The translations under genes were made by a program, and so were the position numbers. The notes under the pieces are model-generated. The model was not told the origin of the DNA. It did not search any database and saw only the letters and a program-made list of their open reading frames with translations. Below, one piece after another: positions 17,731 to 29,379 of a stretch of 64,000 nt of DNA (position 1 is the first letter of the stretch; the number at the start of each line of letters is the position of its first letter). The DNA is from Chthoniobacterales bacterium (lineage in GTDB: Bacteria; Verrucomicrobiota; Verrucomicrobiia; Chthoniobacterales; DASVRZ01): positions 310,001 through 374,000 of the forward strand of contig JBDSQB010000016.1 in NCBI GenBank assembly GCA_039930045.1, given 5' to 3'.

Positions 17731-18570
17731 ATGAAGCGGCAAATCCTCCATTTTCTGACTTCGGCAAGCGTCTTGCTGGCGCTCCCGTTGTCAGGGCTTG
17801 CTCAACGCGACAGCGGTGGTCTCGACTTCACTTCGAGACTCCGAGAAAAAGTTTTAAGCAAGGTGGATGCTCTCCAGCCAGTGGTTTTCAAGGCCACCAC
17901 TCTCGGCAAATATGCATGGAAACCGGACATCGTGACGACGGTGTTTTGGATCGGGGAAAGTCCGGGTGGCAACAACCCTGTGCCCAATCATGCCAGCAGT
18001 TGGGACAAGGAATGGGGCCGCAACTACGGTGGCTATGACAATCCGAATCCGGCTTACCGACGAGGCTTTGTTCCGGCTAACTTCGTGCCGCGACAGAATC
18101 CTTTTTACATTGCGCTGCCTTACAACGATGTCATGCGAGGAGGCACGAAACCCGAGGCGCCTAGAGTCATTCCATGGTTTCGGTCTGCTTTTGAACGTCC
18201 CGGGAAAACGGTCTGCAAGGGCCGCTGGATTGCCATACGCAAGGGGGCGCGGGTCTGCTACGCGCAATGGGAGGATTGCGGTCCCTTTCGCACCGATCAC
18301 TGGGAATATGTCTTTGGCAATGAGCGTCCGCGGCGCAATTTGAACCAAGGTGCCGGCTTGGACGTCTCCCCAGCCGTGCGGGACTATTTGGGAATGGCCG
18401 GCACGGATGTGACCGATTGGAAATTTGTGGATTTCGATGAGGTGCCGCAAGGTCCGTGGTCGCTCTATGGCGACAATAATACCTTTGTGCAGAATCGCCG
18501 AAAACGGGCCGATGTGATTGTGCGCAACACCATTGCCGATGGTGTTGAGGACTATTCGGTCAAAGAATAA
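17731..18570 (+). CDS. Secreted protein with a probable double-psi beta-barrel domain
   Basis: This 279-residue protein has a clear signal peptide (MKRQILHFLTSASVLLALPL, cleavage probably after GLAQ near residue 25). The C-terminal half contains ARVCYAQWEDCGPF and GAGLDVSPAVRDYLG, reminiscent of the catalytic-type loops of RlpA-like double-psi barrels (DxGP followed by D-x-S). The specific function is not known. A peptidoglycan-related or extracellular role is a reasonable guess for such folds. The gene ends 19 bases inside the end of the convergent AsnC-type gene. It diverges from bioD but nothing else links the two. Confidence 0.6.
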   Translation: MKRQILHFLTSASVLLALPLSGLAQRDSGGLDFTSRLREKVLSKVDALQPVVFKATTLGKYAWKPDIVTTVFWIGESPGGNNPVPNHASSWDKEWGRNYGGYDNPNPAYRRGFVPANFVPRQNPFYIALPYNDVMRGGTKPEAPRVIPWFRSAFERPGKTVCKGRWIAIRKGARVCYAQWEDCGPFRTDHWEYVFGNERPRRNLNQGAGLDVSPAVRDYLGMAGTDVTDWKFVDFDEVPQGPWSLYGDNNTFVQNRRKRADVIVRNTIADGVEDYSVKE

Positions 18571-19670
18571 CCGTTGGCTGCATTCGACGCAGTCCATTCA
18601 CGATAAATCAGCGGCGAGATTTCCGAAGGTTTAATCTCGCTTCGGCCTCCCCAGAAGACGTTGGTGTAGCTGACTGGGATTCCGATCTTCGCGAGATGCG
18701 CGTCGATGGCCGCTTTGTGTTCCAGCAGACGCGGTTTCTCCGTGCCGTGGGCTACGGCCATGATGTTCACATTGCGGAACTCCGGCCCGCCTTCGCGCCA
18801 GTAGCAATGGGTCAAAATATCGTGTCTGCCTATTTCTGATCCGGCTTCGATTTCCCGACCAGCGGGGATCGCCCAATGGAAAAGTCCATTGAAACGCGTC
18901 ACGCGCACGCCGGTTTGGGAAGGCTTCACGTGCTCAAGAAAAGTGGAAAAGCGCCCGATGACTTTTCTCTGATTCAAGGCTTCCGCCGTCTCGCAAAAAT
19001 CCTCCAGAGAAACCCCGGCTTCCTCAGCGCGGGCCAGCCACGGATTGGCGGTGATTTCGTCGGGAGCAAACTCGCGTTTCAGGCTGAGAAGGATTTTCCA
19101 TTCGTGGTCCGTTAGCTGGACGACTCCGGTTTTAATCATCAAGGCAGGAGTTACAGCCTTGTCTCCAGGTTCGATGGTTTTGCGACGAACATGACCCACA
19201 CCCAAGGCAAAAATTCCCTTGGCTGGCATCAGTCGGTAAGTCTCTGCACCGGTCAATTCGCAGAGCAACTGGCAATGCGCGTCCAAGCTGAATCCAGCGG
19301 GGACTTTGACCGTGGTCCAGAGTTTGTATTCCGACCCGGCGGTAATGGAGTCGGTCGAGCGGATGACGACGTGACCCGAAAACGGATCGGTCTTCGACAT
19401 AAAATCAAAGGCGGAGTCCAGTTTGTCTGCGTCGATTTTCCAAGCGACCAAGGCACCTTCCGCCAGATTCGTGGCGATCAAGGTTTGGCGAACCCGGCGC
19501 ACGGTTTTTGCCTCCAACATGGCCCGAATCCGCTCAAGGACGGTGCTCAGCGGCAGTCCGCATTGCTCCGAGATTTGGGTAAATGGCTCGCGGACGAATC
19601 CTGGGATTTTATCCTCGGAGACAGCCAGAATTTGAGCGTTGATCGGGTCGTTGTGCTCGGTCGGAATCAT
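18552..19670 (-). CDS. Double-unit AsnC/Lrp-type protein, siroheme-decarboxylase-like
   Basis: The 372 residues contain two copies of an AsnC-like unit. The first (about 8-165) has a winged-helix stretch (ISEQCGLPLSTVLERIRAML) and ends with GIFALGVGHVRRKT. The second (about 190-350) has LSLKREFAP at its helix-turn-helix and then FNGLFHWAIP, THCYWREGGPEFRNVNIMAV and AHG. The HCYxR, aromatic and MxHG-like order resembles the AhbA/AhbB and NirDLGH siroheme decarboxylases more than DNA-binding Lrp regulators. It starts three bases after the gyrA stop, so it is probably transcribed with the gyrase genes. No other heme-pathway gene is visible. A transcription-factor role remains possible. Confidence 0.6.
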   Translation of the reverse strand: MIPTEHNDPINAQILAVSEDKIPGFVREPFTQISEQCGLPLSTVLERIRAMLEAKTVRRVRQTLIATNLAEGALVAWKIDADKLDSAFDFMSKTDPFSGHVVIRSTDSITAGSEYKLWTTVKVPAGFSLDAHCQLLCELTGAETYRLMPAKGIFALGVGHVRRKTIEPGDKAVTPALMIKTGVVQLTDHEWKILLSLKREFAPDEITANPWLARAEEAGVSLEDFCETAEALNQRKVIGRFSTFLEHVKPSQTGVRVTRFNGLFHWAIPAGREIEAGSEIGRHDILTHCYWREGGPEFRNVNIMAVAHGTEKPRLLEHKAAIDAHLAKIGIPVSYTNVFWGGRSEIKPSEISPLIYREWTASNAANGYSLTE

Positions 19671-19673
19671 ATC

Positions 19674-22262
19674 TTACTCCGCCGCGCTTTCCTCGACGAC
19701 CGCATCGTCCTCCTCGGTGGCGACAACCGGCGCGATGCCCTGGAGGCGCTCGCCTTCGCGCATGTCGATGAGAATCACGCCCTGCGCGTTGCGTCCCGTG
19801 GTGCGGATGCCGGCGACTTTGGTGCGAACCATTTTGCCTTTGTTGGTGATGAGCATGATTTCGTCATTTTCGCGAACGGTGAGAGCGCCGACGACGCCTC
19901 CGGTTTTCGCGTTGGTCTTCATCGTGATAACGCCTTTTCCACCTCGCGATTGGAGTCGGTAAACCGGGCCATTTTCGTCGTCGAATGGAGTGCGCTTACC
20001 GAGTCCATTTTCGCCAGCGACGAGAAGGGTGGAGTTCGGATCAACCAATGCGACGCCCACGATATAATCTTTTTTATCAGGACGAATGCCCCAAACGCCG
20101 ACGGTGTCGCGGCCTTGATCGCGCATCTCTTCCTCGCTGAAACGAATACTCATGCCTTCGTGGGTAATGAGAACAATTTCTTTGAAACCATCAGTGAGTT
20201 TGCACTCGATGAGCTGGTCGCCTTCTTCGATTTTGATAGCGATGATGCCGCCTTTGCGGATGTTTTTGAAGTCGGAGAGATTTGATTTTTTAACGATGCC
20301 GCTCCGCGTGGCGAAGACAATGTGCAGCTTGTCGGTCCAAGTTTCCTCGTCCGTTTTCTGACCTTGGATTCGGATCGTAGTGGCGATTTTTTCGTTGGGC
20401 CGAAGCTCCAGAAAATTCGCGATGCTGCGCCCGCGACTGGCCCGGCTCATTTCGGGAATTTCAAAAACGCGTTCGACGTAGCAGCGTCCGTCCTGGGTAA
20501 CGAAAAGCAGGAAATCGTGAGTCGTTGCTGTAAATAAACTCTCCACAAAATCGCTGTCTTCATCCTCGTGTTGCGATTCGCGCGCGACCATTCCGATGAC
20601 GCCTTTACCTCCACGACGTTGCGCTCGGTAAGAACTGACGGCGGTTCGTTTGATGAAGCCGTTGTGGGTGATGGTGATGATAGTCCCCTCGTCGGCGATG
20701 AGATCCTCGATGCTAATCTCGCCCTCGGCGGCGACGATTTGCGTTCGGCGTTCGTTGCCGTATTTGCGCTGAATTTCGCGGACTTCCTCCTTGATCATGG
20801 TGAGGACGCGCATCTCGTTGGCGAGGATGTCGAGGAGGTTTTTGATGACGGCGACGAGGTCGTCGTATTCCTTCTTGATCGCATCGCGCTCGAGGCCGGT
20901 GAGTTGATAGAGTCGCAGGTCGAGAATGTGCCCGACTTGCTTGTCGCTCAGTCGATAAAAACCATCGGCGACGCGTTGCTCGTTGCGAATGAGAACGCCC
21001 AATCCTTCCACCACTGCGCGGCTCCAGGAGAGTGCGGCGAGACGATTTTTTGCGTCATCGCGGTCATTTGAGTCGCGAATGATTCGGATGAAATCATCGA
21101 GATTATCGAGAGCGATAAGCAGGCCTTCCAGCTTCTCCGCGTCGGCCTCGGCTTGGGCTAGCAAATATTTCGTGCGGCGAATAATCACCTCGCGTCGATG
21201 CTCGATGTAACAACTGATCGCGTCTTTCAGTGACAGCAGACGCGGCTTGCCACGGTCGATCGCGAGCATGTTTACACTGAAGGAGGACTCCAGCGGCGTG
21301 TGCTTGTAGAGATTGTTGACAATCACCTTCGGATTGCCGTCGCGCTTCAAGTCGATCACGACTCGCGTGTCCTCCGAACTCTCATCACGAACATCGCTGA
21401 TACCGGTGAGAACTTTCTCGTTTACGAGATCGGCGATTTTCTTCACGAGTTCCGCACGATTCACGTTGAATGGAATCTCGGAAATGATGATCTGTTCGCG
21501 GCCACCCTTGATTTCTGTGGTGCCGATGCGGCCGCGAACTCGCACCGAACCGCGGCCAGTTTCAAAATACTGTTTGAGACCTGCATAGCCTTGAATGATG
21601 CAACCCGTCGGGAAATCCGGTCCTTTTACAAACTCCATCAAGCCCTCGATCGTGATGTCTGGATCGTCAATTTGGGCGCAAATGCCATTGATGACTTCGC
21701 TCAAATTATGCGGCGGCATGTTGGTCGCCATGCCGACGGCAATGCCTGTGCCGCCATTAACCAGCAAATTCGGAAACGCCGCCGGAAACACTGTAGGCTC
21801 GGTGCGAGTTTCATCGTAATTGGGAACGAAATCCACCGTGTCCTTGTCCATGTCCTGCATCAGGGCCGCGCCCAAATGTTGCAGTCGCGCTTCGGTATAA
21901 CGCATCGACGCAGGTGGATCGCCTTCGACCGAGCCGAAGTTGCCCTGGCCATCGATCAGCATCTCGCGCATCGCCCAAGGCTGGGCCATGTGGACGAGCG
22001 TAGGGTAAATCGCCTGATCGCCGTGCGGATGGTAGTTGCCCATGGTTTCGCCGACGATTTTCGCGCACTTCAGATGCTTACGATTTGGCTGCACGCCGAG
22101 ATCGTTCATCGCATAAAGAATGCGACGTTGGGAAGGTTTCAGACCGTCGCGTGCATCGGGCAGCGCACGGGAAATAATGACCGACATCGAGTAATCGAGA
22201 AACGATTTAGACATTTCCTCGGCGACGTTGACCTTTTCGACTTTTTCGTTGGAGTTATACAT
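19674..22262 (-). CDS. gyrA: DNA gyrase subunit A
   Basis: This 862-residue protein has all GyrA landmarks. These are the N-terminal YSMSVIISRALPDARDGLKP, the catalytic tyrosine Tyr122 in MRYTEARL, a breakage-reunion domain through about residue 490, and a C-terminal six-blade pinwheel with the GyrA box QRRGGKG that marks gyrase rather than topoisomerase IV. The quinolone-pocket segment reads NYHPHGDQAIYPT, so the usual Ser/Thr at position 83 is Gln and the acidic residue at 87 is Pro. It introduces negative supercoils together with GyrB. Only nine bases separate it from the toxin gene upstream, and three from the AsnC-type gene downstream. Confidence 0.97.
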   Translation of the reverse strand: MYNSNEKVEKVNVAEEMSKSFLDYSMSVIISRALPDARDGLKPSQRRILYAMNDLGVQPNRKHLKCAKIVGETMGNYHPHGDQAIYPTLVHMAQPWAMREMLIDGQGNFGSVEGDPPASMRYTEARLQHLGAALMQDMDKDTVDFVPNYDETRTEPTVFPAAFPNLLVNGGTGIAVGMATNMPPHNLSEVINGICAQIDDPDITIEGLMEFVKGPDFPTGCIIQGYAGLKQYFETGRGSVRVRGRIGTTEIKGGREQIIISEIPFNVNRAELVKKIADLVNEKVLTGISDVRDESSEDTRVVIDLKRDGNPKVIVNNLYKHTPLESSFSVNMLAIDRGKPRLLSLKDAISCYIEHRREVIIRRTKYLLAQAEADAEKLEGLLIALDNLDDFIRIIRDSNDRDDAKNRLAALSWSRAVVEGLGVLIRNEQRVADGFYRLSDKQVGHILDLRLYQLTGLERDAIKKEYDDLVAVIKNLLDILANEMRVLTMIKEEVREIQRKYGNERRTQIVAAEGEISIEDLIADEGTIITITHNGFIKRTAVSSYRAQRRGGKGVIGMVARESQHEDEDSDFVESLFTATTHDFLLFVTQDGRCYVERVFEIPEMSRASRGRSIANFLELRPNEKIATTIRIQGQKTDEETWTDKLHIVFATRSGIVKKSNLSDFKNIRKGGIIAIKIEEGDQLIECKLTDGFKEIVLITHEGMSIRFSEEEMRDQGRDTVGVWGIRPDKKDYIVGVALVDPNSTLLVAGENGLGKRTPFDDENGPVYRLQSRGGKGVITMKTNAKTGGVVGALTVRENDEIMLITNKGKMVRTKVAGIRTTGRNAQGVILIDMREGERLQGIAPVVATEEDDAVVEESAAE

Positions 22263-22271
22263 GTATGTAAA

Positions 22272-22694
22272 TTATTCGGGGAACACTGGGATGTGCAGCA
22301 GTTTGGCCGCATCCCTCATGCGTTTATCAGTGGCGCAAAGTGGAAAATCCTGACTCGAATCACACGCCGCCACGTGAATGGAATCCAGTGTGCGCAGAGG
22401 CACTGAGGGATGACATCGATCCAGAGTATGTCGGGCTTTTTTCAAGGTCAGGCTGTCCATAGAATGGATTTCGAGGCGCTCGTCCGCGATCCAGGAGGAA
22501 AATTCCTTCCAAGCCTGTTCGCGTTCCAATTCGGTAATGGATTGGGTCCGCTCCTTGGCCAGAAGAGCGGCCAGAACTTCCGTGACAGCCAGCTCGCTCG
22601 TGGAGATGGAATTGCCGGGAATCGCCTGTCTGAAGACGTGACTATCCGGCTCATCGACGAGCAGTTTAATGATGATGGCCGTATCCAAATACAC
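22272..22694 (-). CDS. vapC: PIN-domain toxin, VapC family
   Basis: This 140-residue PIN protein begins MYLDTAIIIKLLVDEPDS, with Asp4 as first metal ligand. Glu in TSELAVTEVLAAL, Asp in LRTLDSIHVAA and Asp in LCATDKRMRDAA complete the acidic cluster. VapC toxins are Mg-dependent RNases, often cutting tRNA or rRNA, held in check by a bound antitoxin. The cognate antitoxin gene ends four bases upstream. The unusual feature is position: the pair fills the space between gyrB and gyrA on the same strand with gaps of 17, 3 and 9 bases. Confidence 0.88.
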   Translation of the reverse strand: MYLDTAIIIKLLVDEPDSHVFRQAIPGNSISTSELAVTEVLAALLAKERTQSITELEREQAWKEFSSWIADERLEIHSMDSLTLKKARHTLDRCHPSVPLRTLDSIHVAACDSSQDFPLCATDKRMRDAAKLLHIPVFPE

Positions 22695-22697
22695 GAT

Positions 22698-23051
22698 TTA
22701 CCATCCTCGGCTGTCGCGATCTTCCCGCACGAGCTCGTCTGCCGTCGAGCCGCCGCGCCATGGAACTGGCTGGAAACCAGCGGAGAAGGCAAATGGCTTC
22801 GACTTGCGACCTGCTTCTGCAGAAACCAGCCGAGCCTTGGGTTTACCATTGCTGGTGATGACGACCTCGCGTCCTTGCTCCACCAGATCGAGCAGGCTGG
22901 AAAGCTGCGCTTTGGCCGTGCGAACGGAAACCATCTGCTCGCTGCCGAGAAGGCTGATGTCGTTCACGGCTGCGGATTCAAACGGCAAACCGTCGGTTAA
23001 TCTGCTGGATAAAGTCGGCTTCATTCCATTATTGTAGTCACGCGTAGTCAC
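22698..23051 (-). CDS. Phd/YefM-type antitoxin
   Basis: The frame encodes up to 117 residues from a GTG at 23051, preceded by AAAGGAAA. ATG starts at 23024 and 22934 are alternatives. The latter begins MVSVRTAKAQLSSLLDLVEQ and would give the typical 78-residue antitoxin. That core, followed by GREVVITSNGKPKARLV, is the classic Phd/YefM DNA-binding fold. The C-terminal tail (residues around VPWRGGSTADELVREDR) is the expected toxin-binding arm. Such antitoxins neutralise the toxin and repress their own promoter, so any internal promoter here would also feed gyrA. Start choice is uncertain; the function call is good. Confidence 0.83.
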   Translation of the reverse strand: MTTRDYNNGMKPTLSSRLTDGLPFESAAVNDISLLGSEQMVSVRTAKAQLSSLLDLVEQGREVVITSNGKPKARLVSAEAGRKSKPFAFSAGFQPVPWRGGSTADELVREDRDSRGW

Positions 23052-23068
23052 GTTGCAACTATTTTCCT

Positions 23069-25645
<2,577 letters not shown>

Positions 25646-25822
25646 TTACTGAGCGGGAAGTTAGCGGGTTTCCACCCAAATAACAACGCTTTTCTTCCGG
25701 CTAAACCCACCCGACACCACGAGATAGTGTGGTCGCGCCCGAGCCAGACCACAATTGGTGCTTTCCCGGTCCGAAAAACTCCGTGATCGACAACTTCCTC
25801 CCGCCAGAGGATTTTTGTCGCC

Positions 25823-27310
25823 TTGAAACGCGGGCTTCTTCTCCTCCTCAGCTTGGTGTTGATCGTCGCCGCGCGGCTCTGGAACCACGACCAGATTTTC
25901 GTCGGTCAGGAAACGTATTTCGTCGATGCCGACTGCTACTCGCGCATGACCCGCGTCGCGGCCGTCGTCGCGCATCCAGGCACGATTTTGCGGTATCACG
26001 ACTTTGAAAACTGGCCCGCCGGCACCACGCCGCACACCACCGCGCCACTGGATTACTGCATCGCCGCCGTCGCCTGGATCACGGGTCGCATCGACCTGGC
26101 AGGCGCGATCACGCCCATTTTAATGGCACTCGCCTCGGGCCTCATCCTGTGGAAATGGGCCCGCCGCTTTCGCTTCGTCACCCAGGTTGCCGTGCTTCTC
26201 ACCTTCGCCGTCAGCCCGATCCTCGTCCACGGCACCGTGCTCGGGCGCCCGGATCACCAGGCATTGCTCATCCTGCTCCTCATCGCCGCCTTCGCCACCG
26301 AATGGGAAATGCCGCAGTCACAGTCGAGTTTCATTCCGATCTGCAACGGACTTGCCTGGGGCCTCGCCCTTTGGACTTCGCTCTTTGAACCTTCCATTCT
26401 GCTAGGAGCCGCGGTTTTGCTGGGCATGGCGGCGAATGGAAAAAAATGGTTCAACCGCCAGCGCGCGATCTCCGCCATCACGATGGGACTCGCCCTGCTC
26501 GTCGCGCTCCTCATCGAACACTGGCATCTCGGCCCGCTCCCGACTGGGCCCCTCTTTGCACGCTGGTCGAAGTCGATTGGCGAACTCGCTCCACTCGGCT
26601 GGTTCTCGAAAACGTATTTGAGCTGGTTCGGACTCGCCCTGCTGGCGCTGCCGTTTGCGCTTTTTCGGAGTCGAGTTGCATTCCAATGGGGCGGGTTGCT
26701 TGTGCTCACGTTCATCCTTTGCACGACCGCCGCGCGCTGGGGGTATTTCCTGGGCATCGCCGTGATTTTCACCCTGCCATTCCTCTTAGAAAAATGGCGC
26801 GCGCCGTGGGTTGCCGTCCTCTTTTTTCTCGGTTTCTGGCCGGTCGCAGCGGAATGGGACTCGCGTCTCTGGCCGTCGCAGCCGGAGCAGGAACGCCTTG
26901 CTGAACAGGCCGAGGACTACCGCGAACTCCGCCAGATTTGCCAGTCCATCGACGGCGGCGGCGTCATCGCGCCGTGGTGGTTGTCGCCGCCCATCGCGTA
27001 TTGGAGTGGGGCGAAATGTGTGGCCGGTAGTTCGCATCAGAGCCTGCCGGGGAACGAGGATGTCGCGAATTTCTATCTGAGTCGATTCCCGGAAAAAGCC
27101 CGCGATATCGCTCTGCGTCGGCAAGTCCGCTGGGTCGTCGCGTATGAGCCGGAGCGCGTTCTTTCCACCGCTTCCGGTTTGGTGGACATCCCGGCGGCGA
27201 ACGACGCCCTCGGCGCCACCATCTATAATAGCCCGCGTCGCGCCCCGGCCTTTCTGCAACTGGAAAAGGAAACCCAGTTCTTCCGATTGTATCGGGTCGT
27301 CGATCCATAA
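25823..27310 (+). CDS. Multi-pass membrane protein, distant STT3/PglB-like glycosyltransferase
   Basis: At 495 residues with about ten hydrophobic helices in the first 350 and a soluble C-terminal part, it has the STT3 outline. The first outer loop has VDADCYSRMTRV with an acidic pair, then YHDFENWPAGT and APLDYC. A GRPDHQALLILLL helix matches the DHH-type segment of the family. The C-terminal WWLSPPIAYW stands where oligosaccharyltransferases have WWDYG, so the acceptor-site motif is altered. A role in moving a sugar from a lipid carrier is possible but unproven. The start is TTG with AGAGGA 12 bases before it; no in-frame ATG fits better. No glycan-synthesis gene cluster surrounds it. Confidence 0.55.
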   Translation: MKRGLLLLLSLVLIVAARLWNHDQIFVGQETYFVDADCYSRMTRVAAVVAHPGTILRYHDFENWPAGTTPHTTAPLDYCIAAVAWITGRIDLAGAITPILMALASGLILWKWARRFRFVTQVAVLLTFAVSPILVHGTVLGRPDHQALLILLLIAAFATEWEMPQSQSSFIPICNGLAWGLALWTSLFEPSILLGAAVLLGMAANGKKWFNRQRAISAITMGLALLVALLIEHWHLGPLPTGPLFARWSKSIGELAPLGWFSKTYLSWFGLALLALPFALFRSRVAFQWGGLLVLTFILCTTAARWGYFLGIAVIFTLPFLLEKWRAPWVAVLFFLGFWPVAAEWDSRLWPSQPEQERLAEQAEDYRELRQICQSIDGGGVIAPWWLSPPIAYWSGAKCVAGSSHQSLPGNEDVANFYLSRFPEKARDIALRRQVRWVVAYEPERVLSTASGLVDIPAANDALGATIYNSPRRAPAFLQLEKETQFFRLYRVVDP

Positions 27311-27435: not shown

Positions 27436-29379
27436 CTACACCTTGCGCCCGAATTTTTTCTCCAAGTCCCCGTAGTCGAATTGGATCAAAGTCGGACGGC
27501 CGTGGGGGCAGCAATAGGGGAGGTCGCAGGCCAGCAAATCCTGAATGAGATGCACCTGTTCCTCGCGATGCAGCACGTCGTTCGCCTTCACGGCGTGACG
27601 GCAGACCGTCTTGGCGATCACGTCTTCGCCGAGGCGCAGACTGCTCGTTTGCGTCGTGGCGGAACGCAAATCGTCGATCAGACGTCGAATCAACGTCAGC
27701 GGATCGCTCGTTTTAATGAAACTCGGCAGCGCATCGACCTTGTAAGTGGTATCGACCACGCCGTCGCCAAAGGGCTCAATGCCGATCCCCATCCGGTGCA
27801 ACGTCGCGAGATTTTCTGAGAGCCAGGCGTGATCGCGCGGCGCGACGCCGAGGGTCAGCGGCAGAAGGAGGCGTTGCGAGGCGACTCCCCGCGTTTCCAT
27901 GCTGCGCTGGAGTTGTTCAAAGAGGATGCGCTCGTGGGCGGCGTGCTGATCGACGAGGACCAGGCCGTCGGCGGACTCGAGGAGAATGTAGAGTTTGCCC
28001 AAGACGCCGAGGATTTTGAATTGGGGCACTGGAATGCCGGTAACCAAGTTGGCACTGCCTGTTCCGGCGTCGGTTGAGGCATTCGCAAAACTCGGAATGC
28101 CATTCCCGGTGTCGGTTGAGGCATTCGTGAAACTCGGAATGTCGTTCCCGGCGTCGGTTGAGGCGTTCGTGAAACTCGGAATGTCGTTCCCGGCGTCGGT
28201 TGAGGCATTCGCGAAACTCGGAATGCCATTCCCGGTGTCAGTTGGGGCATTCGTAAAACTCGGAATGCCGTTCCCGGCGTCAGTTGGGGCATTCGTGAAA
28301 CTCGGAATGCCATTCCCGGCGTCAGTTGGGGCATTCGTAAAACTCGGAATGCCCGAAATGGGCGAAAGTTGCCGCTGCCAACTGCCCCGGGTCGATTCCA
28401 ATGTCACTCGAATGGCCCGTGCCAAAATCTCCCGCACCAGACCCGGATCGCGGAAACGGACCTCGCGCTTGGCCGGGTGGACGTTGACATCGACGGCGGC
28501 GGGGTCCATTTCCAGAAATAGGAACGTGATCGGGTGCTGGCCGCGCATCAATGCGGTGTGATAGCCCTCGCGCAGGCCGTGGTTGATGGAGAGGTTTTCC
28601 ACGGCGCGTCCGTTCACGAAACTGATCTGCTGGCTGCGATTCGACCGCGAAATGCCCGGTTTGCCGATCAGGCCCCAAATACGGATGCCGGCGTCGTCGA
28701 TCACAGGCATCTCGACCAGTTGCTCGACGAACGGACTTCCATACAAATCGCGCAACCGCTCGGTGAGCGTGGCCGAAGCTGGCACTTGGAAGACCGTCCG
28801 GTCGTCGCGCAAATAGGTAAACGCCACACCCGGATGCCCGATGGCCTGGAGGTGCAGGGCGTGTTCGATGTGGCTCGCCTCGGTGTTTTCCGTGCGCAAA
28901 AACTTGCGCCGCGCGGGCAGATTATAAAAAAGTGAGCGGACTTCGATTTGAGTCCCCGGAGCCTCGCCACTGGAGCGGACGGCCTCGATTTTACCGCCGG
29001 AAATGAGGATTTCGGTGCCTTCCTCGGCGTCGCGTGGACGGGTGCTGAGGCGAAAACGCGACACGCTGGCGATGCTCGGCAACGCTTCCCCACGAAACCC
29101 GAGCGTGGCGATGGCGGCCAAATCTGATCCGAGTCGGATCTTGCTCGTGGCGTGGCGTTCGAGGCAAAGGAGGGCGTCGTCGCGGTCCATGCCCGAGCCG
29201 TCATCGACGACCTTGATCTGCGAATTGCCGCCGCGCCGGATGAGGACTTCGATGCGTTTCGCGCCTGCGTCGAGGCTGTTTTCGACGAGTTCCTTGATGA
29301 CCGACGCTGGCCGTTCCACGACTTCGCCCGCCGCCACTTGATTGGCAACGTCTTCGGGAAGGAGGCGGATGGAACCCAT
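27436..29379 (-). CDS. mutL: DNA mismatch repair protein MutL
   Basis: The 647-residue protein has the GHKL ATPase N-terminus: MGSIRLLPEDVANQVAAGEV, ELVENSLDAGA, DDGSGMD, TLGFRGEALPSI. The transducer domain runs to about residue 330. The MutL C-terminal dimerisation domain (from about 450) ends with ACDLPYCCPHGRPTLIQFD. ACHRAVK-type CRHAVKANDVL is present, but no DQHAX2EX4E endonuclease motif in full: VLVDQHAAHERILFEQ is there, which does match the DQHA(X)2E start. The disordered linker carries seven 14-residue repeats of the type GIPSFTNAPTDAGN. It couples mismatch recognition to strand incision. It converges with the STT3-like gene across the long palindrome. Confidence 0.95.
   Translation of the reverse strand: MGSIRLLPEDVANQVAAGEVVERPASVIKELVENSLDAGAKRIEVLIRRGGNSQIKVVDDGSGMDRDDALLCLERHATSKIRLGSDLAAIATLGFRGEALPSIASVSRFRLSTRPRDAEEGTEILISGGKIEAVRSSGEAPGTQIEVRSLFYNLPARRKFLRTENTEASHIEHALHLQAIGHPGVAFTYLRDDRTVFQVPASATLTERLRDLYGSPFVEQLVEMPVIDDAGIRIWGLIGKPGISRSNRSQQISFVNGRAVENLSINHGLREGYHTALMRGQHPITFLFLEMDPAAVDVNVHPAKREVRFRDPGLVREILARAIRVTLESTRGSWQRQLSPISGIPSFTNAPTDAGNGIPSFTNAPTDAGNGIPSFTNAPTDTGNGIPSFANASTDAGNDIPSFTNASTDAGNDIPSFTNASTDTGNGIPSFANASTDAGTGSANLVTGIPVPQFKILGVLGKLYILLESADGLVLVDQHAAHERILFEQLQRSMETRGVASQRLLLPLTLGVAPRDHAWLSENLATLHRMGIGIEPFGDGVVDTTYKVDALPSFIKTSDPLTLIRRLIDDLRSATTQTSSLRLGEDVIAKTVCRHAVKANDVLHREEQVHLIQDLLACDLPYCCPHGRPTLIQFDYGDLEKKFGRKV
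28060..28353. repeat. 42-base tandem repeat inside mutL (seven units)
   Basis: Seven near-identical 42-base units lie in frame in the linker-coding part of mutL and encode GIPSFTNAPTDAGN with changes at a few positions (F/T, P/S, A/T, G/D). Because the unit is a multiple of three, gain or loss of copies would lengthen or shorten the linker without breaking the frame. Units differ mostly by single-base changes, as expected for an array kept by slippage or recombination. Confidence 0.93.

Follow-up and report, generated by a model that had tools for sequence, protein, structure and literature searches.

A toxin-antitoxin module between gyrB and gyrA of Verrucomicrobiota with a conserved candidate operator and signs of allele exchange in place

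Introduction

Why should a toxin-antitoxin (TA) pair lie between gyrB and gyrA, does it bear on the expression of gyrA, and can it be lost from such a place? These questions are raised by a 64,000-nucleotide stretch of DNA from a Chthoniobacterales bacterium (contig JBDSQB010000016.1, positions 310,001 to 374,000), which was analysed as a whole and is called the window here. Chromosomal TA pairs are usually regarded as short-lived, erratically distributed inserts. The original prediction held that expression of gyrA would be tied to TA autoregulation, or that the pair is locked into an essential operon and cannot be lost. As a kind, a TA pair inside a housekeeping operon is already known; a report of one between gyrB and gyrA was not found in the open literature searched.

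Results

The gene order given in the original prediction was borne out, with all four genes on the minus strand and supported by Pfam: gyrB (23069..25630, 853 aa; gyraseB, Toprim and HATPase domains), a Phd/YefM-family antitoxin (22698..23024, 108 aa; PF02604, 1.4e-11; TIGR01552 phd_fam, 1.4e-11, 43.5 bits against a cut-off of 20.8), a PIN-domain VapC-type toxin (22272..22694, 140 aa with a GTG start; PF01850, 3.2e-11) and gyrA (19674..22262, 862 aa). The two small genes, adjacent and co-directional with the antitoxin first, have the layout of a type II TA pair. A chance arrangement or a mis-assembly was dismissed on finding the same gene order in many independent genomes. The gyrase seems to be the sole enzyme of its type in the window's genome, given that a single GyrA-type match was found there.

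Two of the three intergenic distances first given held, namely 3 nt between antitoxin and toxin (-1 to 13 nt in relatives) and 9 nt between the toxin stop and the gyrA start. The third, 17 nt between gyrB and the antitoxin, did not; this gap is most likely 44 nt, since the start codon conserved in relatives, ATGAAR at 5-7 nt after the -10 box, corresponds to the ATG at 23024. The antitoxin reading frame as first called (22698-23051) begins with a GTG at 23051, which was rejected as the start because it is the first triplet of the putative operator described below and is not conserved as a start. In an alignment with nine orthologues, the Phd domain is preceded by an N-terminal extension that is conserved and about 30 aa long.

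In the case of the toxin, the acidic residues D4, E39 and D104 are invariant and D123 is nearly so among 32 sequences. Its AlphaFold model (pLDDT 96.6) has VapC structures among its top fold matches in Foldseek, including Mycobacterium tuberculosis VapC20 (5wzf) and VapBC15 (4chg). The PIN fold, the acidic residues and the antitoxin-first order are shared with these systems, but identity to the matched PIN structures is only 10-21%, a search of the PDB by sequence returned one weak match only, and the antitoxin, unlike in the VapBC systems compared, is of the Phd/YefM type with its 30-aa N-terminal extension. The toxin dN/dS is 0.08-0.10 in four pairs of loci without a TA swap (L111/L112, L120/L130, L114/L115 and L105/L107). 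Inactive toxin residues in all relatives, named in the original prediction as evidence against it, were not what we observed. Both the conservation of the acidic residues and the purifying selection argue that the toxin looks active.

The 44 nt between gyrB and the antitoxin ATG appear to contain both a promoter and an operator. The -35 box of the predicted TA promoter is TTGCAA (23053..23058, minus strand) and the -10 box, 6 nt before the antitoxin ATG, is TACAAT (23031..23036, minus strand). Two 8-bp half-sites fill the spacer and overlap the -10 box, forming a putative operator of the form GTGACTAC-GC-GTGACTAC-A (23033..23051, minus strand). The window has one occurrence of this 19-bp sequence, GTGACTACGCGTGACTACA when read from 23051 to 23033, where 0 are expected, and a search of the whole genome that allowed up to three mismatches also found it once; it is conserved in relatives. 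In the window, 10 nt separate the gyrB stop codon from the -35 box downstream of it; in many relatives the two overlap.

A scan of both strands of positions 19500-26100 (6.6 kb) returned a single promoter-like site, the TA promoter. The count of such sites is by itself not above that in shuffles, and the argument for the promoter therefore rests on its conservation. A TTG-type -35 box in the same position, a spacer of 16-18 nt made up of two 8-bp half-sites and a TACATT-type -10 box were found in 34 of the 36 named loci, and in these 34 the -10 box is 5-7 nt from the antitoxin start codon. Most relatives have TTGACA/G and TACATT where the window has TTGCAA and TACAAT, and the -35 box of the window is weak (9 of 12 promoter matches). 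Since the -10 box is so near the start codon, the TA transcript is probably leaderless.

The half-sites come in two arrangements. In the window's order they form a direct repeat, GTGAC(T/C)AC-NN-GTGACTAC, whereas in a second order the left half-site is reverse-complemented (GTRGTCAC-NN-GTGACTAC) and the operator becomes an inverted repeat, that is, a palindrome. Published Phd/YefM operators are palindromes (PMC4803016), as in the second order and unlike the direct repeat of the window's order. Phd-Doc and YefM-YoeB resemble the present module in combining a Phd/YefM antitoxin with an operator that overlaps the -10 box (PMC4803016), and differ from it in the toxin, which is Doc or YoeB there and a PIN protein here. 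The same kind of site is present at TA copies outside the gyrase locus (L121, L126, L145, L155 and L158), which argues that the operator is part of the TA module. Paired half-sites within a conserved promoter appear to travel with the module, and are a candidate autoregulatory operator.

Between toxin and gyrA, neither a promoter nor a terminator was found in the scan of positions 19500-26100. Most members of the window's order have 3-18 nt between toxin and gyrA; in the second order, the distance to the gyrA ATG is about 5-35 nt once an N-terminal extension of gyrA is counted. A separate gyrA promoter in this gap was discarded as an explanation, given that there is little room for it and that the seeming gap of 50-90 nt in the second order is mostly the gyrA extension. 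With no such element between the toxin gene and gyrA, the TA promoter should feed gyrA, which may be partly driven by it. As regards the proposed tie between gyrA and TA autoregulation, the anatomy supports it, with a promoter and putative operator belonging to the pair and none of the separate promoters or terminators that would speak against it found before gyrA; an effect on gyrA would follow from this anatomy. In a few relatives (L100, L101 and L104), the toxin and gyrA are separated by a further gene. The additional DNA lies at L101:6436-7533, L100:917-1514 and L104:3615-4573, and includes a Stf0 sulfotransferase-like ORF in L101 and a DUF4160-like ORF in L100, both recognised by eye only.

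The module was found at the gyrB-gyrA junction in at least 76 sampled Verrucomicrobiota genomes, and the carriers are nearly all metagenome assemblies. In the window's order, a toxin profile search, in which orthologues scored 209-246 bits and paralogues at most 81 bits, identified the orthologous toxin in 17 of 213 genomes. As far as the contigs reach, all 17 carry it at the gyrase locus; in G066 and G088 the contig ends, yet the gyrA start or the toxin tail can be seen. A homologue is present in 83 of 320 genomes of the second order, and adjoins gyrA in 54 of these. Five further gyrA-adjacent cases came from neither order search (G288, G294, G390, G408 and G463). The scan of named genomes gave 36 loci, all from Verrucomicrobiota (records of Chthoniobacter, Spartobacteria, Terrimicrobiaceae, Limisphaerales/subdivision 3 and others); 32 are at the gyrase locus, and 28 have gyrB and gyrA flanking the TA pair on a single contig. 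The arrangement had been called rare, and it is indeed patchy, yet it recurs in two orders (17/213 and 54/320 genomes).

Some copies are not linked to gyrase. One lies directly downstream of a Wadjet cluster with JetB, JetC and JetD matches (L121:363-6429), has the same type of promoter and operator, and is nearly identical to a TA pair in L122. Eleven genomes of genus g120 also have a TA pair away from gyrA. Another copy sits between two same-strand nucleotide-sugar-type genes (L145:1-3426), which indicates that the module can live in other operons too. No plasmid relative of the pair was found and viral contigs hold only relatives of 26-27% identity, so carriage by plasmids or phages was dropped.

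Comparison of the gyrB-gyrA spacing in relatives, as suggested with the original prediction, gave a divided picture, with many empty junctions of 6-24 nt (among them L041, L047, L049 and L052-L054) and others that carry the TA pair. On a GyrA tree of 37 genomes, presence and absence require about 6 changes, compared with 12.5 in shuffles. In one genome (L057, G023) both ends of a deleted TA module remain between an intact gyrB and an intact gyrA. The 5' frame of this remnant matches the antitoxin N-terminus with a protein score of 62, the maximum of the shuffles being 46 (0/1000), and the nucleotide match of the same part is not above shuffles. Its 3' end scores 26 against the toxin C-terminus of the sister genome G083, with 3/500 shuffles as good, and 40 against those of L118 and L119. 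Another small ORF or remnant occupies the gap in the TA-free loci L044, L045 and L060; judging from its sequence, the ORF may be GxxExxY-like.

The deep split between the orders is congruent in the TA and gyrase trees, with support of 100/100 in the TA tree. Within orders, simple vertical inheritance of TA alleles together with gyrase was abandoned on the strength of AU tests, which rejected TA monophyly for sets of gyrase sisters: L118/L119 (p 6e-48), L106/L120/L130 (1e-17), L102/L124 (1e-48) and L109/L114/L115 (3e-4), p values that are optimistic in that the sets were picked after inspection of the trees. The window's own allele is divergent, with an end branch of 0.81 in the TA tree.

The edges of the swaps fall within the antitoxin and close to the 3' end of the toxin. 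In L118/L119 and L106/L120, identity in gyrB and gyrA is mostly 93-99% up to these edges, compared with 45-60% for most of the toxin. The edge in L115/L109 is inside the antitoxin, whose first 64 residues hardly differ, in contrast to residues from about 64 to 80 and to the toxin. Fast evolution of the toxin was rejected as the cause of the divergence, since synonymous divergence is also far above that of gyrA (dS 1.4-2.4 for the toxin and 0.16-0.40 for gyrA in three pairs of loci with a swap) and since the four pairs without a swap have a dN/dS of only about 0.1. Across sets, toxin distance correlates with that of the antitoxin C-half at r 0.67-0.74 (Mantel p 0.0005 for every set), as against 0.00-0.32 with gyrase; in the best-sampled family the two values are 0.74 and 0.00. 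The antitoxin N-half correlates about equally with gyrase (0.34-0.43) and with the toxin (0.33-0.45). By the C-half correlation, toxin and antitoxin evolve as a matched pair: the antitoxin C-half moves with the toxin, and the DNA-binding half partly tracks gyrase. This pattern fits homologous exchange, in which the specificity part would be replaced and the gyrase flanks, the operator and the DNA-binding half would act as common ground. Two tandem divergent TA copies lie between gyrB and gyrA in L113 (L113:5729-7317), with toxins 47% and 41% identical to that of the window; they are possibly an intermediate of allele exchange.

Discussion

We consider it probable that the pair is a VapBC-like module, self-contained and autoregulated, whose promoter also feeds gyrA and which is swapped in place through recombination in the gyrase flanks. 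Accepting this, a type II TA module, composed of a Phd/YefM antitoxin and a VapC-type PIN ribonuclease, would have settled long ago at the gyrB-gyrA junction of Verrucomicrobiota. Its antitoxin, either by itself or together with the toxin, would bind the two half-sites between the -35 and -10 boxes and repress its own promoter; transcripts would begin at or beside the antitoxin ATG, and the TA promoter would add to the gyrA transcription that reads through from gyrB. The module would be passed on with the gyrase locus and deleted at times, and homologous recombination within the gyrase genes on either side would let related genomes exchange it. In such an exchange the toxin would be replaced jointly with the C-half of the antitoxin that binds it, while the operator and the DNA-binding half would tend to stay. 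Of this reading, the sequences themselves show the anatomy, the conserved promoter with its half-sites, the conserved catalytic residues, the purifying selection, the swapping of alleles in place and the loss that left a remnant, whereas repression by the antitoxin, the leaderless start, the supply of gyrA and the activity of the toxin are inferred. A bolder proposal, which we regard as somewhat unlikely, is a multi-allelic TA locus with gyrase homology arms and exchanged toxin/antitoxin-C cassettes, in which a leaderless TA-regulated promoter sets gyrA output. If this were true, the state of the TA pair would be read out as gyrase level.

How far a functional link to gyrase exists is where the evidence divides, as the frequent loss of the TA pair argues against such a link and its conserved spacing and position argue for one. 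The module may be a passive passenger, an accessory insert at a junction that tolerates insertions, and whatever transcription it adds to gyrA would be a neutral by-product. This is quite conceivable, although we lean away from it: TA-free relatives keep a tight gyrB-gyrA pair, few changes account for presence and absence, other ORFs occupy the junction too, the same module and operator are found elsewhere, and mazEF in relA-mazG and yafNO in dinB-yafP are precedents (PMC7167474). It accounts less well for one orthologous module kept, with conserved strand and spacing, at one junction in at least two orders, and for close homologues of the second order being mostly at gyrA. Selected coupling is a more doubtful alternative. 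According to it, TA autoregulation sets gyrA, so that loss of the antitoxin under stress would raise gyrA and alter the GyrA:GyrB ratio. In its favour are the pair's own conserved promoter directly upstream, the failure to find a terminator or promoter ahead of gyrA, and a toxin-gyrA spacing that is consistently short in both orders; the frequent loss, the additional genes that some genomes have between toxin and gyrA, and the same operator at copies away from gyrase weigh against it.

Repeated independent insertion of a mobile TA pair at a hotspot, instead of long residence with allele exchange, would explain the patchy distribution, the several unlinked copies and the tandem copies in L113. 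We judge it improbable, given the order-level split in the TA tree, the positions of the swap edges, which are those expected of homologous exchange between resident copies, the loss in place in L057, and the lack of closer relatives on the plasmids and viral contigs searched. The idea that position makes the pair impossible to lose draws on its essential flanks and one-strand arrangement; the pair is absent from most relatives, clean empty junctions are common even in close relatives, and the L057 remnant has its gyrase genes intact, so that this part of the original prediction fails and lock-in is very improbable. The location of the pair also raised the idea of a toxin that targets gyrase, as CcdB and ParE do, or that responds to supercoiling. 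VapC toxins are RNases and are not known as gyrase poisons. The toxin has a PIN/VapC fold with conserved nuclease residues and not that of CcdB or ParE, nothing points to a response to supercoiling, and we find this idea scarcely credible.

In Escherichia coli, relA-mazEF-mazG and dinB-yafNO-yafP likewise have a type II TA pair inside a housekeeping operon; other strains lack the TA pair and have its flanking genes side by side without interruption, and these TA pairs were judged to have no functional link to their operons (PMC7167474). The present case differs from these in the gyrase operon, the Phd-PIN composition, a position kept across at least two orders and the exchange of divergent alleles. 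At folA-ccd-apaH of E. coli O157:H7, a core-gene junction is plastic and holds a TA pair or other elements depending on the strain (PMC7167474), just as the gyrB-gyrA junction has a TA pair, nothing or other ORFs. The folA-apaH junction varies between strains of one species, whereas here orthologous modules with a conserved operator persist across orders. What is new is the gyrase location, the depth of conservation, the exchange of specificity cassettes in place and the re-oriented half-site.

Taken together, one orthologous module holds its position within an essential operon in at least two bacterial orders, even as its specificity part is swapped in place. The empty, remnant and allelic sites form a natural series in which to study what makes TA pairs persist, how the specificity between toxin and antitoxin evolves, and whether control of a core gene can pass to a TA promoter.

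Two features of the neighbouring DNA may be added. A siroheme decarboxylase (NirDL-like) gene (18552-19670, minus strand) follows the gyrA stop at a distance of 3 nt and may share a transcript with the gyrase genes. Farther away, in the linker of a mutL-like ORF (27436-29379), a unit of about 14 residues (GIPSFTNAPTDAGN and variants) is repeated in tandem, at window positions 28000-28340 on the minus strand.
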